64,000 nt of DNA from Flavisolibacter nicotianae (lineage in GTDB: Bacteria; Bacteroidota; Bacteroidia; Chitinophagales; Chitinophagaceae): assembly GCF_003628535.1 (NCBI RefSeq), contig NZ_RBCI01000013.1, positions 1-64,000 on the forward strand, read 5' to 3'. The number at the start of each line of letters is the position of its first letter. The first letter of the stretch is position 1. The position numbers were made by a program, and so were the translations under genes. A model generated the notes under the pieces. That model worked only from the letters and a program-made list of their open reading frames with translations, searched no databases and had not been told where the DNA came from. Below, in pieces: positions 49,352 to 57,399 of this stretch.

Positions 49352-49909
49352 ATGCTGCACATTAAAAATATGGTTTGCGACCGGTGTATCATGGTGGTGC
49401 GCCAGCAACTCGATGCACTCAACCTGGATTACAAAAATGTGCAGCTTGGCCAGGTGGAATTGCGCAGCGAGCCCACGCTGCAACAGGTGGAGAGCCTGCG
49501 TGCAAACCTCGGGGCAACCGGGTTCGAGTTGCTGGATGATAAAAAAGCCAGGATTGTCGAACGCATCAAGAATGTGATTGTTTCCCTGGTCCACCGCGAT
49601 CAGGAAGAAATGAACCTCAAGCTCTCTGCCATCCTGGAAGACAAACTGCAACTGGATTACCACTACCTCACCACGCTTTTCTCCTCGGTGGAAGGCGTGA
49701 CCATTGAACGCTACGCCATCCTGCAACGCATCGAACGGGTAAAGGAATTACTGATGTACGACGAGGAAAGCCTCAGCGGGATTGCCTTTGAAATGGGCTA
49801 TAGCAGCGTGCAGCACCTGTCGCAGCAATTCAAAAAAATCACCGGCCTCACACCCTCACAGTTCCGGCAACTGAAGGAAAACAGGCGTAAGCCGCTCGAT
49901 AAAGTGTAA
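49352..49909 (+). CDS. AraC-family regulator with HMA-like CxxC N-terminal domain
   Basis: 185 residues. Residues 1-65 have the length and pattern of a heavy-metal-associated (ferredoxin-like) domain: MLHIKNMVCDRCIMVVRQQL with CxxC at about residues 9-12, ending LGATGFELLDD. A linker helix follows. Residues about 95-180 form the two AraC-type helix-turn-helices: LQLDYHYLTTLFSSVEGVTI, then LSGIAFEMGYSSVQHLSQQF and KKITGLTPSQFRQLKE. It is the first gene of the copper cluster, so it is the likely direct copper sensor and activator (inference). GTG 49349 would add one residue. Predicted targets are the three 21-bp direct repeats downstream. Confidence 0.85.
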   Translation: MLHIKNMVCDRCIMVVRQQLDALNLDYKNVQLGQVELRSEPTLQQVESLRANLGATGFELLDDKKARIVERIKNVIVSLVHRDQEEMNLKLSAILEDKLQLDYHYLTTLFSSVEGVTIERYAILQRIERVKELLMYDEESLSGIAFEMGYSSVQHLSQQFKKITGLTPSQFRQLKENRRKPLDKV

Positions 49910-50008
49910 AAGCAAACACCTGTCTCAGCCTATATTTTTTTGCTTTGGTGACAACTGCTTTTTCTTTTCTCCATCCACAATTGCCTCATTATTCCAGGCT
50001 AAAAATTA

Positions 50009-50064
50009 TATACATCCTGCTCGGTAGGGTGTAACAATCGCCTTTCTGTGTTGCCGGAGTTTTG
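50009..50064 (+). promoter_or_regulatory. Copper operator-promoter 1 (copA)
   Basis: TATACATC (50009-50016), 13 bp, TGTAACAA (50030-50037), 19 bp, GAGTTTTG (-7 box, 50057-50064). The two octamers start 21 bp apart, two helical turns. The same arrangement recurs exactly at 52399 and 52805. The second octamer covers the -33 position, as expected for an AraC-type activator site. Confidence 0.75.
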
Positions 50065-50080
50065 CAGAAACAAAAGACGT

Positions 50081-52336
50081 ATGTCCGCAACAAGCATAGC
50101 TGAAAAAAAGACAGGCTCGAAGATGGTCAGGGAAACCTTTCCCGTTCTGGAAATGACCTGTGCCGCCTGCGCCGTTAGCGTCGAATCGATGCTGAAATCA
50201 ACAGAAGGCGTGAAGGATGCTGGTGTCAACTTTGCCAACCAGGATGCCTGGGTGGAATACAACCCGGCGCTTGCCACGCCTGAAACGCTGCAGCAAACAA
50301 TCCGTTCCATCGGCTACGACCTGGTGATCGAAAAAGAAAATGCAACAGGGATCAAAGAAGCGGCTCAGCAGCAACACTATCGGGCGGTCAAACAACGAAC
50401 TACCTGGTCGGGTATTCTTTCCTTACCCATTGTCATCATCGGCATGTTCTTCATGAACTGGCCCGCTGCCAATTACAGCATGATGGCGCTGGCTACTCCC
50501 GTTGTCTTTTATTTTGGCCGCAGTTATTTTATCAATGCCTGGAACCAGGCCCGCCACCGCAAGGCCAACATGGATACACTCGTAGCGCTCAGCACCGGCA
50601 TTGCCTACCTGTTCAGTGTGTTCAACACGTTTTTCCCGGGTTTCTGGCACCAGCGTGGCCTGCACGCCCATGTCTATTTTGAAGCTGCGGCCGTGGTAAT
50701 TGCCTTTATCTCGCTGGGCAAATTGCTGGAAGAAAAAGCAAAATCAAACACCTCTTCTGCCATTAAAAAACTGATGGGCCTTCAACCGAAAACCGTGACC
50801 CTGGTGTACCCGGGCGGGCACCAGGGGGAAATACCGATAGCAGCCGTCAAAACAGGCGATACCTTGCTGGTAAAACCCGGGGAAAAAATTCCCGTCGACG
50901 GTGCCCTCATCAGCGGCGCTTCTTTTGTGGATGAAAGCATGATCAGCGGCGAGCCGGTCCCGGTGGAAAAAACGAGCGGCAACAAAGTGTTTGCCGGAAC
51001 CATCAACCAGAAAGGAAGCTTCCAGTTCCGTGCAGAAAAAGTGGGTGCCGAAACCCTGCTTTCGCAGATCATCAGGCTGGTACAGGAAGCGCAGGGAAGC
51101 AAGGCGCCGGTGCAAAAGCTGGTTGATAAAATTGCCGGCATCTTCGTGCCGGTGGTGATTGGCATTTCCATTCTCACGTTTATCGTGTGGATGCTTTCCG
51201 GTGCCGACAATGCCTTTACCCATGCCTTGTTAACGGCCGTCACCGTACTGGTGATTGCCTGTCCCTGTGCCCTGGGTCTTGCCACGCCAACGGCGATCAT
51301 GGTCGGTGTGGGCAAGGGCGCCGAAAACAACATCCTGATCAAAGACGCCGAAAGCCTGGAACTGGCGCACAGGGTCAATGCCGTCATCCTCGATAAAACC
51401 GGTACCATCACGGAAGGAAAGCCAATCGTCAGTGATCTTGTCTTTGCTGATGGCGTTGCGGTAGCAGCACTGAAGGCTGTCCTGCTGGGTATCGAGCAGC
51501 AATCGGAGCATCCCCTGGCAGAAGCCGTTGTTGCGCACCTGAAGGCACAGGGTGTTGCACCGGCCGTCATCGAAAAAGTCGAAACTGTCACCGGCAAGGG
51601 CATCGCGGCCGTTTACAAGGGAAAGCAATACCTGGTTGGCAGTACGGCTTTGTTAACGGAAAAAGGGATCCGGGTAAACCCTTTACAGGCGGCGAACATG
51701 GAGGATTTGCAGCAGCAGGCGAAAACGGTCGTTGCGTTTGCGGAAGACGACAAGGTGGTGGCCATCATTGCCATAGCCGACATGATCAAAGCCACCTCCA
51801 AACAGGCGATCCAAAATTTGCAGCAGCAAGGCATCGACGTGTATATGCTTACCGGCGACAACCGGCAAACCGCTGCGGCCATTGCCAGGGAAGTGGGATT
51901 GCAACACTACAAAGCCGGCGTGTTGCCGGCCGGTAAAGCTGCCTTTGTGAAAGAACTGCAGGCAAACGGGAAAATCGTGGCCATGGTGGGCGACGGCATC
52001 AACGACAGCCATGCGCTGGCCCAGGCCGATGTCAGCATCGCGATGGGACGTGGAAGCGACATCGCCATCGACGTGGCCAAAATGACCCTGATCACTTCCG
52101 ATCTCAACACGATTCCCAAGGCCCTGAAGCTGTCCCGCAGAACGGTGCAGGCCATTCGCCAGAACCTGTTCTGGGCTTTTATTTACAACGTCATTGGTAT
52201 TCCGGTGGCAGCCGGTGTGTTGTACCCCTTCAACGGTTTCCTGCTCGACCCGATGATTGCCGGTGCGGCCATGGCCCTGAGTTCAGTCAGTGTTGTCAGC
52301 AACAGTCTTCGGCTGAAATTCACACGTCTTTTATAA
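50081..52336 (+). CDS. copA: Copper-translocating P1B-type ATPase
   Basis: 751 residues from ATG 50081; GTG 50048 lies inside the predicted promoter spacer and is rejected. One N-terminal HMA domain with MTCAAC (about residues 25-30). The membrane CPC motif is in [19 protein letters not shown]. The phosphorylation site is [13 protein letters not shown], the HP motif [10 protein letters not shown], the ATP-site [10 protein letters not shown] and [15 protein letters not shown]. The C-terminal helices with [11 protein letters not shown] and [15 protein letters not shown] carry the residues typical of Cu(I) pumps. It exports cytoplasmic Cu(I). It has its own operator-promoter and terminator, so it forms a single-gene unit of the regulon. 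Confidence 0.95.
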
Positions 52337-52359
52337 AACCTGGCGTTTGGTTATACGAG

Positions 52360-52386
52360 GCCCGGCAATTGTGCCGGGCTTTTGTT
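52360..52386 (+). terminator. Terminator of copA
   Basis: GCCCGGCA-attg-TGCCGGGC (8-bp perfect stem) followed by TTTTGTTTTT. It starts 23 bp after the stop codon and ends just before the next copper operator. Confidence 0.85.
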
Positions 52387-52398
52387 TTTCGAAAATTC

Positions 52399-52454
52399 TA
52401 TACATCAAACCCAGAATCCTATAACAATGCAGCGGCGGTGCCGTGCGAGCTTTG
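52399..52454 (+). promoter_or_regulatory. Copper operator-promoter 2 (HMA chaperone)
   Basis: TATACATC (52399-52406), 13 bp, TATAACAA (52420-52427), 19 bp, GAGCTTTG (-7 box, 52447-52454). Same geometry as at 50009; the first octamer is identical to that of copA. Confidence 0.75.
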
Positions 52455-52516
52455 TGTTCTGTTGGTGCAGATGGCATTTCAGTGCTGAGGGACAGCAATA
52501 AAAAAATCAAACAAAG

Positions 52517-52729
52517 ATGGAAGCAATGAAATTTAAAACAAACATTAAGTGCAGCGGTTGCATCGCAACGGTGACGCCGTTTTTGAACAAAACAGTGGGT
52601 GAAAATTCCTGGAACGTCGATGTGCAAAATCCGGATAAAGTTTTGGCGATTAACAGGCAGGATGTGCCGGAAGAAGAAGTGGTCAGGGCCGTGCAGGACG
52701 CCGGCTACAAGGCGGAAAAGATCGGGTAG
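52517..52729 (+). CDS. HMA-domain copper chaperone (CopZ-like)
   Basis: 70 residues, a single ferredoxin-like HMA domain: MKFKTNIKCSGCIATVTPFL with the CSGC metal site, ending VVRAVQDAGYKAEKIG. It would carry Cu(I) in the cytoplasm to CopA. It stands between two terminators with its own copper operator-promoter and a leader of about 55 nt. ATG 52526 is a possible later start. Confidence 0.9.
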   Translation: MEAMKFKTNIKCSGCIATVTPFLNKTVGENSWNVDVQNPDKVLAINRQDVPEEEVVRAVQDAGYKAEKIG

Positions 52730-52732
52730 AGC

Positions 52733-52758
52733 AAAGGCAACGAAAGTTGCCTTTTTTT
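52733..52758 (+). terminator. Terminator of the HMA chaperone gene
   Basis: AAAGGCAAC-gaaa-GTTGCCTTT with a GAAA tetraloop and a T7 run. It starts 4 bp after the stop codon. Confidence 0.9.
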
Positions 52759-52804
52759 ATGGGTTTTGTTTTCCATTTCTGCTTCATCGTCGCCATTAAA
52801 ATCT

Positions 52805-52860
52805 TATAACGCTGGCACGTAATAGTATAACAACAGCCGCTTTGCAGCAGGGTAGTTTTG
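52805..52860 (+). promoter_or_regulatory. Copper operator-promoter 3 (DUF3347 and multicopper oxidase)
   Basis: TATAACGC (52805-52812), 13 bp, TATAACAA (52826-52833), 19 bp, TAGTTTTG (52853-52860), here a perfect TAnnTTTG box. Same geometry as the other two copies. Confidence 0.78.
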
Positions 52861-52879: not shown

Positions 52880-53377
52880 ATGAAAAAGAAGAACATCCTG
52901 CTTTCACTCATCGCAGTTTTCATATTGGCTCCTTTCTTTGGCTTCAGCCAGGCACAAGATGGTGCACTGTCTTCCCTGCTGACAAAGTATTTTGCAGTGA
53001 AGAATGCACTGGTTGCCGGTGATGCGGCTGGCGCCGGCAAGGCTGCTGCTGATTTTGTTTCCGCCGCAAAAGTTCTCGATCAAAAAAGCCTCACGGCAAC
53101 TGAGCAAAAAGCCTACAACGCTGTCCAGGCAAAACTCCTGGCTGATGCCGGTGCCCTTGCGGGCACCAAAGACCTGGCCAGGCAGCGTACCACCTTTCAA
53201 TCCTTTTCCGACAACATGATCGCCCTGAGCAAGGCAACAAAACCGGCAGCCCCGGTTTACGTGGCCTATTGCCCCATGAAAAAAGCGTCCTGGCTTTCCA
53301 ATGAAAAGGTGATTAAAAATCCTTACTACGGCAGCACCATGCTGAGTTGCGGGCAGGTAACGGATACGATCAAATAG
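52880..53377 (+). CDS. DUF3347-type periplasmic copper protein
   Basis: 165 residues. Signal peptide MKKKNILLSLIAVFILAPFF with cleavage after about GFSQA. Helical DUF3347 core beginning LSSLLTKYFAVKNALVAGD. The C-terminal signature PVYVAYCPMKKASWLS, KNPYYGSTMLSCGQVTD has Cys and Met residues suited to bind copper. DUF3347 segments commonly accompany copper/silver efflux genes in Bacteroidota. It is driven by copper operator 3 and probably co-transcribed with the oxidase 48 bp downstream. Exact role unknown. Confidence 0.88.
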   Translation: MKKKNILLSLIAVFILAPFFGFSQAQDGALSSLLTKYFAVKNALVAGDAAGAGKAAADFVSAAKVLDQKSLTATEQKAYNAVQAKLLADAGALAGTKDLARQRTTFQSFSDNMIALSKATKPAAPVYVAYCPMKKASWLSNEKVIKNPYYGSTMLSCGQVTDTIK

Positions 53378-53425: not shown

Positions 53426-55624
53426 ATGAGAAAGATCTTCTTTTTGCTGCTGCTCACCGGAAGCATGGTGGGAAAGGCACAGCACCAAATGACGATGAAC
53501 GGTCCGGCTGTGCGGGAGCCCTTCCGCACACAGGTGGGAGGCAGGGTGATTTACCATTTGTACGTGACCGATACCACGGTGAACTACACCGGCAAAAAAG
53601 CGCAGGCTGTAGCCATCAATGGCTCCATTCCTGCGCCGCAGTTGGACTTTACCGAAGGTGATACCGCCGAAATTCATGTGCACAATCGCATGCACATGGA
53701 AACCTCCATCCACTGGCATGGCCTCATCTTGCCAAACGAGCAGGATGGTGTTCCCTATCTGACAACCATGGCCATCCAGGCGCACAGTACCTTTGTGTAC
53801 CGTTTCCCGGTTGTGCAAAACGGCACCTACTGGTATCACTCGCATTCGATGCTGCAGGAGCAATCCGGCATGTACGGGGCGTTGATCATTCATAAAAAAG
53901 AAGCCGCCAGGGAAAAAGAATTCACCGTGCTGCTAAGCGACTGGACCAACGAGAAACCCGAACAGGTGGAGCGTTCGCTGCACAACGCCACTGACTGGTA
54001 CGCCATCAAAAAAGGCGCAACGCAGGATTACTGGCAGGCCATCAAAGAAGGAAAGCTGAAAACAAAACTGGGCAACGAGTGGAAGCGCATGCTGGCCATG
54101 GACGTCAGCGATGTGTATTACGACCTCTTTACCATCAACGGCAAGGCACAAGAACAGGTGCCACAGGTGAAAAGGGGAGAAAAGGTGCGGCTGCGGGTGA
54201 TCAACGGGAGTTCGTCCACCTATTTCTGGCTGCGCTTTGCCGGTGGAAAAATTACGGTGATAGCCACGGATGGAAAGGACGTGGAACCCGTGGAAGTAGA
54301 CCGCCTGATCGTAGGCGTTTCCGAAACCTATGACCTGGAACTAACGCTTCCCAGTGAGGGCCGTTATGAATTTATGGCAACCTCCGAAGACCGTACGAAA
54401 AGCACGTCGCTGTGGATGGGTGAAGGCGAAAAACATCACCTGCAACCCCTGCCCAGGCTCAAATATTTTGAAGGCATGAAGATGATGAACGACATGATGA
54501 ACATGAACGGTACCATGAACGACATGGGCATGAACATGAGCCTCCAGCAAATGGACATGAACACGGTAATGTATCCCGAGATTGTCGACAGCAACCAAAG
54601 TCTTACGACCCTGAATTATGCCATGCTCAAAGCGCCGGGAAAAACCACGCTGCCCGAAGGACCGCTGCGGGTGATGCGCTTTGAACTCACCGGCAACATG
54701 AACCGCTACGTGTGGACCATCAACAACAAAACCGTTTCCGAAACCGATAAGATCCTGATCAAAAAAGGCGAAAACTTCCGCATCATCATTAACAACAATT
54801 CCATGATGCGCCATCCCATGCACCTGCACGGGCACTTCTTCCGGGTGCTGAACGGACAGGGTGAAAACGCTCCCTGGAAAACGGTGCTGGATGTGATGCC
54901 AATGGAAACCGACACCATCGAGTTCCATGCCTCCGAAAGCTACGGCGACTGGTATTTTCATTGCCATATCCTCTACCACATGATGGCCGGGATGTGCCGT
55001 ATTTTCAGCTATGTGCCAACCGGTGAACAAACCACGCAATCGGCTTACAAACAGGACCTGCGTAAAGTGTACCACGACGACCGCCGCTTGTATCCCTATG
55101 CGGAAATCGGTCTCGAAAGCAACGGCAGCGATGGCGAGGTGCGGCTTGCCAATACAAGGTGGTCGATTCAAACAGAGTGGCGACTGGGCATGAACAAACA
55201 AAATGGTTATGAAAGCGAAACCCACATCGGTCGCTACCTTGGCCGCAACCAATGGCTTATGCCTTACGTTGGTTTCGACTGGCGGTACCGCAAGCATGCG
55301 CCGGGTGAGAAAGGTGAAGTAGAGAAAAACATATTCGGCCAAACAAATACAAAAGACGAACGAGGTGTGATCTGTTTTGGCGTGCAATACCTGCTACCGA
55401 TGCTGGTAAAGGCGGATGCACGGGTTGACACCGATGGTAAACTGCGCCTGCAACTCGGCCGCGAAGACATGGCCCTGACCAGGCGCCTGCGGTTTAATTT
55501 CATGGTGAATTCAGACAGGGAATATTCCACCGGCTTTCACTACATCCTGACAAAATACATTTCGCTTTCCACGCACTACGACAGCGATATGGGCTGGGGC
55601 GGCGGGTTGAAGTTGACATACTAG
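53426..55624 (+). CDS. Multicopper oxidase with C-terminal CopB-like barrel domain
   Basis: 732 residues. Signal peptide MRKIFFLLLLTGSMVGKAQ. Three cupredoxin domains with all copper-ligand motifs: IHWHGLILPNEQDG, WYHSHSMLQEQSG, RHPMHLHGHFF and HCHILYHMMAGM. A Met-rich stretch of about 40 residues (near residues 350-390, with repeats such as MNDMMNMNG) resembles the Cu-binding loop of CueO/CopA-type oxidases. After about residue 545 comes a non-cupredoxin domain of about 190 residues with alternating beta-strand pattern (YPYAEIGLES, NQWLMPYVGFDWRY, ISLSTHYDSDMGWGGG), ending in an aromatic residue. It looks like an outer-membrane barrel domain of CopB type. The enzyme would oxidise Cu(I) in the periplasm; the barrel would anchor it in the outer membrane (inference). 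Confidence 0.9.
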   Translation: MRKIFFLLLLTGSMVGKAQHQMTMNGPAVREPFRTQVGGRVIYHLYVTDTTVNYTGKKAQAVAINGSIPAPQLDFTEGDTAEIHVHNRMHMETSIHWHGLILPNEQDGVPYLTTMAIQAHSTFVYRFPVVQNGTYWYHSHSMLQEQSGMYGALIIHKKEAAREKEFTVLLSDWTNEKPEQVERSLHNATDWYAIKKGATQDYWQAIKEGKLKTKLGNEWKRMLAMDVSDVYYDLFTINGKAQEQVPQVKRGEKVRLRVINGSSSTYFWLRFAGGKITVIATDGKDVEPVEVDRLIVGVSETYDLELTLPSEGRYEFMATSEDRTKSTSLWMGEGEKHHLQPLPRLKYFEGMKMMNDMMNMNGTMNDMGMNMSLQQMDMNTVMYPEIVDSNQSLTTLNYAMLKAPGKTTLPEGPLRVMRFELTGNMNRYVWTINNKTVSETDKILIKKGENFRIIINNNSMMRHPMHLHGHFFRVLNGQGENAPWKTVLDVMPMETDTIEFHASESYGDWYFHCHILYHMMAGMCRIFSYVPTGEQTTQSAYKQDLRKVYHDDRRLYPYAEIGLESNGSDGEVRLANTRWSIQTEWRLGMNKQNGYESETHIGRYLGRNQWLMPYVGFDWRYRKHAPGEKGEVEKNIFGQTNTKDERGVICFGVQYLLPMLVKADARVDTDGKLRLQLGREDMALTRRLRFNFMVNSDREYSTGFHYILTKYISLSTHYDSDMGWGGGLKLTY

Positions 55625-55652
55625 CTTCCTTCGAGGAACCAGGGAACAAGCC

Positions 55653-55837
55653 ATGAACGGGCATCTGAAAAAAGACAGGTTCCAATTCGACAACTTGCTG
55701 GAAACCGTACGGCAACAAAGCGTGAATGTTTTGCAATCGCTGCCCGAACGATCAACCACTTCTTCGAAACGGGTCGGCGAGGCGGCACTGCTGCAGGATA
55801 CAGGCATGGGCGCTGAAGATGCCCTTCGGTTATTGCC
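55653..55837 (+). pseudogene. 5' fragment of a PLP-dependent decarboxylase-like gene
   Basis: The frame from ATG 55653 reads MNGHLKKDRFQFDNLLETVR and continues to TGMGAEDALRL. This resembles the N-terminus of the pyridoxal-dependent decarboxylase / aspartate aminotransferase-like family (GxGAExALxLF motif). The similarity stops at about 55833, and within a few codons the sequence changes to a GH127 fragment in another frame. Assignment by motif memory only. Confidence 0.45.
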
Positions 55838-56383
55838 ATGCAGATGTGCATTCCAGGCTGGCTGAACCAGCCGGTGCCGGGAAACATATACCGCTATTCC
55901 GATGGTAAGGAACTGAATCCGGCGATCGCCGTCAACGAGTAGACTATTGCCTATTCCGTAAAAGGCGGCTGCGCCGTAATAGACCAGACCTGGAAAAAAG
56001 GGGATGTGATCAGCATTGAATTTCCCATGGAAGTGCGCCAGGTAGTGAGCCGGCCGGAGTCAAGCAAAACATTGGTCGCGTTGCCCTGCAATATGGCCCG
56101 TTGGTATATTGCGTGGAAGGAAAAGACAACGGCGACAATGCCTGGAATTTTGTGGTGCCGGAAAAAAAAGGCCTATGCAACCAGTTTTCAACCGGCCTTA
56201 TTGAGAGGTGTCAACACGATCACCTTCGACGCCAACGTTGCACAGGTAGGTGCCGATGGAAAAACCATTTAAACAGGGTCAAAAAAAATGGCGGCCATTC
56301 CCTACTATTCCTGGAACAACCGGGGCGCTGGCGCCATGCAGGTCTGGCTGCCAACAGCCATTAAAACAGTGATAGTGAACTGA
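55838..56383 (+). pseudogene. 3' fragment of a GH127-like gene (beta-L-arabinofuranosidase family)
   Basis: Reading through two frameshifts and two stops gives a coherent GH127 C-terminus: IPGWLNQPVPGNIYRYSDGK, TAG at 55940-55942, then GDVISIEFPMEVRQVVSRPE, a frameshift near 56070, VALQYGPLVYCVEGKDNGDN, a frameshift in the A8 run at about 56160. After it come VNTITFDANVAQVGADGKT, TAA at 56270-56272, and IPYYSWNNRGAGAMQVWLP to the end. These are family hallmarks (RVALQYGPLVYC, IPYYxWNNR). The catalytic N-terminal part is gone, so the gene is dead. Confidence 0.82.
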
Positions 56384-57399
56384 CGGAAGGCATTCCTTTA
56401 CGCAGAGGACCCTCGTTTCCTGCCTGTTTTTTCAAAAGCCTGTCTGTGCGCCAGTCCGCCGGACAGGCTTTTTTGCGGCCTGCCACAGGCCGCGGATTGG
56501 GCGGAAACAGCATCGCATCAATAGGGTGTAGGGTGGTAGCTTTTAAAAGCCGGTTACCGTCTTTCCGGATTTTTGCAGGTGACCTTGTGCACTGGATTTG
56601 CGGCGAGAATCTGGGGATAAAGAAAGACGATTCCATTAACGACAAACGACTGCCACGGTAACCTGTACACGAGGTTCTTTCACGAATGGTAAATGGCCAT
56701 CCTCTTCCTTCGCTAAACGTCCACCCCGGAGCGCAACTGGAATTGAAAGGTTGTACCAAAGCCGCCAAGAAGTCAATCGCTGTGTAGATTCGTAAGCCTT
56801 TCCAAACCGATCTCCCCACTATAGGGTGAAGTAGCATCAGTTACGGATAGAAGGTGAAAAGAAAACGAAATAAGCACGGTGAAGTTGGTTTGAAGGATAG
56901 GCGCAAGCTCTGGATAGAAACGATCATTGCTACCCGAAAGTTTGCCGGCTCTGATTTTGAATCCGAATTCCTTTGTAAAAGCAATCAAGCACAAAAAGAG
57001 CAGCCGATTTCTATGGGCGTGCAAAATTTTGGTGACACGAATTTTTGGAAGATTTCGAATTTAAGAATAGTTTTAAGGAGCATTACATATCCTTCCTATC
57101 AATTTCCTTTTTGCCGTTCTCGAAACCAAAACTTAACCCTAACCCCTTTAAATTGTAACGACCATGCCTGCTGAAACAAAAAGTTTCTACCTCGGATCGA
57201 TGCCAGGATTCTCTGCAGACAAAACCTGTAGCCTGATCTCCTGTAGCCCGTAGGATGTGTCTTTTAGTTGCACGCCTTCTTTCAACAACAAACAACAATC
57301 CATTACTTCACTGGCAATTGCCTTATTTGCCCGGTCATAAAAAAAACATTGGGCACGTCTGCCAAAACGATTCTCATCACCTTTAAATACATACTTGTC
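56384..57399. other. Long intergenic region upstream of the FG-GAP protein
   Basis: About 1 kb. Holds two hairpins (56434-56493) and, beyond 56800, AT-richer sequence that probably includes the promoter of the next gene. A frame at 56854-57174 has no recognisable similarity and no good start context, and I do not call it. TAGTTTTA near 57067 is a one-mismatch -7 box without a -33 partner. Confidence 0.5.
56434..56493. terminator. Terminator-like hairpin and an adjoining palindrome
   Basis: AAAAGCCTGTC (56434-56444) pairs with GACAGGCTTTT (56462-56472) across a 17-nt loop. It is followed by TT and then GCGGCCTG-cca-CAGGCCGC (56475-56493), a perfect 8-bp hairpin. The first can end transcripts from the GH127 remnant side. 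Confidence 0.65.

Follow-up and report, generated by a model that had tools for sequence, protein, structure and literature searches.

A direct-repeat operator shared by three copper transcription units and its candidate HMA-AraC regulator

Copper genes and promoters of the window

The 64-kb stretch of DNA analysed here (the window) carries on its forward strand a one-component regulator gene followed by copper genes in three transcription units. The first of these is copA (50081..52336), which according to profile searches encodes a Cu(I)-exporting P1B ATPase with an N-terminal HMA domain. The second encodes a small CopZ-like HMA protein of 70 aa (52517..52729), with weak NCBIfam CopZ matches (24 bits, below cut-off) and no Pfam family at E≤0.001. 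The third consists of a gene for a DUF3347 protein of 165 aa (52880..53377; Pfam PF11827, 67 bits) and, behind it, one for a multicopper oxidase of 732 aa (53426..55624), identified by Pfam Cu-oxidase families and matching TIGR01480 at 388.6 bits, which is below the cut-off of 478.95. Terminator-like hairpins were found on the same strand 3' of copA (52357..52382, 11 pairs) and 3' of the chaperone gene (52733..52754, 9 pairs). Single hairpins are weak evidence, since a scan of 7 kb returned 16, where shuffled sequence gave 10.7 on average; no others in the scan have as many pairs as these two, and the three units of the original prediction are a fair description of the locus. Behind the multicopper oxidase, at 55650-56400, broken-looking frames look like fragments of one longer enzyme gene, which by eye might be the remains of a glycoside hydrolase.

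The regulator gene (49352..49909, forward strand) encodes a protein of 185 aa for which profiles, predicted models and an alignment indicate an N-terminal HMA-like fold, with an MxCxxC motif at residues 7-12, and a C-terminal AraC-type DNA-binding domain. The latter matches Pfam HTH_18 (PF12833) at 62.7 bits (cut-off 33.6) and thus belongs with the AraC/XylS two-HTH domains; its nearest solved folds are AraC-type domains, and PF12833 matches all 59 aligned members of the regulator family at E≤1. Against Pfam HMA (PF00403) the regulator scores 12.5 bits, under the cut-off of 24.8, and 29 of the 59 aligned members match this profile at E≤1 (best 3.3e-4). The assignment to the HMA fold is instead based on predicted models and alignment, in which a b-a-b-b-a-b fold coincides with an MxCxxC loop. 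The AlphaFold model of the regulator (pLDDT 87.6) shows b-a-b-b-a-b, a long helix and then the AraC domain, and the N-domain of about 62 residues, modelled alone, reaches pLDDT 94 and finds mostly HMA domains as its nearest solved folds, at weak E-values (best 0.067). Residues N6, M7, V8, C9, R11 and C12 are kept in the alignment of 59 sequences, with C9 and C12 invariant. One match in the genome of the window spans the whole HMA-AraC protein, and seven others cover its DNA-binding part only.

The same operator-promoter layout lies before all three copper units, and a direct reading at 50009, 52399 and 52805 reproduced the spacings noted in the original prediction, namely an octamer period of 21 bp and a gap of 19 bp to a -7 box, in 3/3 units. 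On the forward strand, the copA operator comprises the octamers TATACATC at 50009 and TGTAACAA at 50030 and the box GAGTTTTG at 50057. The HMA-chaperone operator has TATACATC at 52399, TATAACAA at 52420 and GAGCTTTG at 52447, and the DUF3347-unit operator TATAACGC at 52805, TATAACAA at 52826 and TAGTTTTG at 52853. The position of the octamers and their 21-bp repeat were borne out; they had been drawn too short, however, because conservation extends 4-5 bp further upstream of each. The half-sites, defined by direct reading together with a matrix from relatives, are AATTATATACAT (distal, 50004..50015) and AGGGTGTAACAA (proximal, 50025..50036, at the -33 position) for copA, AATTCTATACAT (52394..52405) and AATCCTATAACA (52415..52426) for the HMA chaperone, and AATCTTATAACG (52800..52811) and AATAGTATAACA (52821..52832) for the DUF3347 unit.

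The TAnnTTTG box is placed at -12 to -5 in an excerpt of PMC9723704, and transcription starts are on that basis predicted at about 50069 for copA (box 50057..50064), 52459 for the HMA chaperone (box 52447..52454) and 52865 for the DUF3347 unit (box 52853..52860). This puts the proximal octamer at about -39 to -32, on top of the -33 element reported for promoters of Bacteroides (PMC2483708). As had been proposed, the second octamer stands in the place of the normal -33 TTG: a TTG 17-23 bp before the box was present in 0/98 operator promoters vs 17/72 background boxes, a contrast to which the layout itself contributes, the operator filling that place, and which shows replacement of the -33 element, not an independent effect. 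Promoters of the standard sigma-70 type were rejected as a reading: a search for them gave two sites, where shuffled sequence averaged 4.7, and none of the three units had one.

With the matrix re-estimated on relatives (loci L058-L090), the three sites were the top three matches in the 64 kb, at 36.2, 30.2 and 27.3 bits, while the next best reached 5.9. Across all 6.09 Mb of the genome, the full pattern occurred with at most two mismatches in three places, which are the three window sites, and its control gave 0. The second half-site and box alone, with at most one mismatch, recovered the three window sites and one more in the genome (C24:617860); allowing two mismatches yielded 43 places vs 66 in the reversed control, which is chance level.

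Conservation in relatives and association with the regulator gene

The best 80 of 291 relatives were kept (L058-L137). A matrix of the 40-bp operator without the box took the three window sites as its seed and was then re-estimated on 33 loci of named relatives (L058-L090); it is not fully blind, since the seed came from the window. With a threshold above the maximum of a Markov-1 control, 63 sites were found in 31 of these 33 loci. The conserved half-site is about 12 bp long, roughly AATTnTATAmCA, and is directly repeated with a period of 21 bp; a TAnnTTTG-like box follows 18-19 bp further downstream. The operator consensus reads AATTaTATACAt, followed by some ten weakly conserved bases and by ATnnTATAACA. 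The predicted strict spacing was retained, with a TAnnTTTG-like box (at least 5/6) at 19 bp in 51 of the 63 sites, at 18 bp in 5 and at 30 or 34 bp in 3 more. This spacing is informative even though the sites came from the matrix, because the box lay outside it. When half-sites of L058-L090 were scored separately, a period of 21 occurred in 50 cases and any other period in at most 2.

The held-out and more distant loci L091-L137, which include Pedobacter, Mucilaginibacter, Flavobacterium, Mariniphaga, Saprospiraceae, Ignavibacteria and others, had 58 sites above 8 bits vs 20 in the control (sites not deduplicated), and a box at 18 or 19 bp in 41 sites vs 0 in the control. Self-similarity without any seed placed period 21 on top upstream of copA (48/73; other periods mean 20.9, maximum 31), the only gene for which it stood out clearly; it led by one for HMA genes (21 vs 20), and in front of DUF3347, oxidase and regulator genes, as of the remaining genes, other periods beat 21. 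Comparison of the two half-site profiles favours a direct repeat at 21 (0.60); the inverted reading, TATA being a palindrome, still reaches 0.47.

In solved complexes of AraC-type proteins, a single protomer places its two HTHs roughly 10 bp from each other. The 21-bp direct repeat held, but its original attribution to the two HTHs needs correction, and the period is best read as the spacing from protomer to protomer.

The prediction that the motif would sit before copper genes of relatives and follow the HMA-AraC gene agrees with the genome counts. In a family sample of 194 genomes, 150 were carriers of an HMA-AraC gene at E≤1e-25 and 44 were non-carriers. Carriers gave 220 full-pattern matches vs 25 control matches, with 106/150 genomes matched, whereas non-carriers gave 15 vs 11, with 13/44 genomes matched (Fisher p 1.3e-6 on genomes with a match, uncorrected for kinship or genome size). 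A looser pattern was applied to a phylum sample of 148 genomes, comprising 70 carriers and 78 non-carriers, and returned 80 matches in 30 genomes vs 7 control matches; genomes with a match were 28/70 carriers and 2/78 non-carriers (Fisher p 4e-9, uncorrected for kinship). The patterns represent one spacing with few mismatches, and 44/150 family carriers and 42/70 phylum carriers had no match to them.

The association was also seen at loci of CopA and other P1B ATPases, of which 30 (those for which a locus was obtained) came from each of two groups of 44 genomes, the 44 carriers having been chosen down the list of 150. Before CopA orthologues (at least 47% identity) the operator was present in 18/24 carrier loci and in 0/2 non-carrier loci, the latter arm being small, and before less similar P1B ATPases in 1/6 carrier and 0/28 non-carrier loci. 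Among the six of 24 carrier orthologues that fail the strict operator test, three have operator-like sequence with a weaker box (L205, L210, L214), one has a poor repeat of 4.9 bits with the box at 18 (L217), one has a repeat-like stretch without a box (L218), and one has no operator-like sequence (L219). A CopA-type gene (match at least 48%) was found in 26/44 sampled carrier genomes vs 4/44 non-carriers.

At 109 sites in L058-L137, the best 80 of 291 relatives, the next gene was CopA-like in 43 cases, HMA in 12 and DUF3347 in 1; the remainder comprised 29 other genes, 12 cases in which none was found and 12 with a regulator-like label. The last group consists of nine second HMA-AraC paralogues, one regulator itself and two small CopZ-like proteins. 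By sequence reading, the 29 other genes include ten for a membrane protein that begins like an HMA domain and is about 240 aa long, seven for a His/Cys-rich protein and three of efflux type. Of the 30 loci listed at phylum scale (one of which is the window), 6 have a CopA-like next gene and 5 one for a small HMA protein, and several next genes at the listed loci were membrane, cupin-like or other genes without an evident copper role. The operator-like pattern stands before such genes at L266, L282, L283, L263, L267 and L257, by eye a permease, a large membrane-anchored protein (two genomes), outer-membrane-like proteins and a cupin-like protein. These genes may mark paralogue regulons, and since the pattern also fronts genes of other genera that are not obviously copper genes, the operator may be an architecture of the regulator family rather than one reserved for copper.

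A second HMA-AraC paralogue adjoins the first in nine loci (L059, L061, L063, L064, L067, L072, L077, L087, L128; phmmer 107-139 bits). It keeps the CxxC and has an operator before its gene, and its identity to the first is 37-40% where measured (L141, L157, L198). A first-type regulator gene lies behind an operator at only 1/109 sites of L058-L137, a weak one in L061. A second paralogue under the operator and a first without it suggest a feed-forward pair. Two genomes (G312, G367) have 14 and 10 operator-pattern matches and four HMA-AraC matches each, a possible expansion of the system. HMA-AraC genes with an operator-like repeat were also observed in records labelled as Ignavibacteria or kin, with the box at 19 bp in L117, L122 and L124 and a weak box in L089, and given these four loci the system may reach past Bacteroidota.

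A proposed copper switch and its alternatives

Computed results are the repeat with its spacing, the observations that it is conserved, lies at copper genes and co-occurs with the regulator, and the two predicted domains of that protein. They support the original interpretation of a regulator-linked, co-regulated copper operator. We consider it likely that the three promoters form one copper regulon under the HMA-AraC protein encoded at 49352, acting as a Cu(I)-responsive activator. The HMA-AraC/operator pair is a good candidate for a copper sensor of these bacteria, since the switch adjoins the regulator at three copper units and the pairing recurs in relatives. The protein is probably made constitutively, as the window has no operator match before its gene. 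Rising cytosolic Cu(I) would be bound by the CopZ-like N-domain through MxCxxC, and two copper-loaded protomers would then occupy the 21-bp repeat as a head-to-tail dimer. Of these, the proximal protomer, sitting at the position of the -33 TTG, would by analogy with AraC at pBAD aid the sigma-A RNA polymerase at the TAnnTTTG-like box, and CopA export, the CopZ-like chaperone and the DUF3347 and multicopper-oxidase pair would be switched on.

The location of the proximal half-site over -33 is one in which a repressor could also sit, and the HMA-AraC protein might accordingly bind the same operator and repress, the apo form covering -33 and Cu(I) releasing it. However, a repressor needs neither a box spacing held at 18-19 bp across families nor the loss of the -33 TTG from every operator promoter (0/98). 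The repeat moreover keeps one orientation to the box, in that a perfect TAnnTTTG was found on the matching strand at 18/19 bp in 39/86 deduplicated sites and on the other strand beyond the far end in 3/86. Repression is therefore disfavoured and in our judgement rather improbable. Activation by Cu(I) could also be wrong in its signal alone, the architecture and the activator being right and the inducer another soft metal or thiol stress. MxCxxC HMA domains occur in Zn, Cd, Hg and Au proteins as well, and CadA, ZiaA, MerP and GolB are among the fold matches, but the commonest next gene is CopA-like (43/109 sites) and CopZ-like HMA proteins are also frequent, which makes a different signal unlikely.

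That another regulator of the two-component, MerR or CsoR type uses the sites, with the HMA-AraC gene a mere neighbour, would fit PMC10141476, where the only copper homologues reported for the marine Bacteroidota that it covers, and for some other phyla, are of the two-component and ECF kinds. Genome-wide, however, the motif goes with the HMA-AraC gene, and two operators stand before copA (L202, L207) in genomes whose sole regulator match is on another contig (G125, G027). Nor does the genome of the window hold a CsoR (PF02583, 0 matches; the control was positive in 6/14 genomes) or a CueR above cut-off, TIGR02044 giving only 25 bits in a 304-aa frame elsewhere against a cut-off of 147.4; control by either of the two is rejected for this genome. 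Dyads are the sites of the MerR type, and the repeats of the OmpR type recur every 10-11 bp. We regard control by such a regulator as very unlikely. Mere chance similarity of AT-rich promoters might be suspected from the AT-rich half-sites, the commonness of TATA and the chance level reached by the proximal half-site and box alone with two mismatches. It is rejected by the Markov and reversed-pattern controls for the full layout, and sliding the second half-site and box by one base (period 22) cut the phylum matches from 80 (7 in the control) to 10 (4 in the control), leaving this explanation a negligible probability.

Cu(I)-linked dimers of CopZ/Atx1 proteins are known and provide a model for Cu(I)-bridged HMA domains. 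A Cu(I)-responsive HMA-AraC activator could on a wider and tentative reading, which we hold to be possible though not probable, represent a phylum-wide class of one-component metalloregulators and serve Bacteroidota as their general sensor of cytosolic copper. The dimer for the 21-bp repeat would then be made by a Cu(I) bridge between two HMA domains, other genes would have come under paralogues, and a copy that is itself under the operator would provide feed-forward in several lineages.

Relation to known copper and AraC-type systems

Copper sensing in Bacteroidota appears poorly defined, since excerpts of one survey mention only two-component and ECF copper homologues for its marine Bacteroidota (PMC10141476). 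At the level of titles and abstracts in the open-access literature, no description was found of an HMA-AraC copper regulator, of such an operator or of the combination of AraC-like geometry, a CopZ-like sensor and a Bacteroidota promoter at copper genes; most subscription journals lie outside this scope, and the result is weak evidence of absence. One protein, one operator and one fixed promoter geometry are here proposed together for copper sensing. The proposal is testable in tractable strains because the protein (70/148) and the operator pattern (30/148) recur across the sampled genomes of the phylum, and it suggests a possible rule for the unusual promoters of Bacteroidota, with an activator standing in for the -33 element.

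The closest likeness in geometry is AraC at the I1-I2 sites of pBAD in E. coli, where two direct-repeat half-sites also have a 21-bp period, with the proximal one reaching the -35 region, and the DNA-binding domain is of the same type as that found here by profile and fold matches. In contrast to AraC, whose sensor is a cupin-type arm, the sensor here has an HMA-like fold of about 62 residues, and unlike pBAD the operator serves a TAnnTTTG promoter of Bacteroidota before copper genes. CueR of the MerR family resembles the regulator proposed here in being a cytosolic one-component activator that responds to Cu(I) and turns on copA and an oxidase, but belongs to another protein family and has as its operator a dyad in a long spacer, whereas the present operator is a direct repeat upstream of the -7 box. 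CsoR and CopY likewise control copA and copZ, but are repressors with other folds. The N-domain itself is similar to CopZ/Atx1-type HMA chaperones and GolB in predicted fold and in MxCxxC, and differs from them in being fused to an AraC-type DNA-binding domain.
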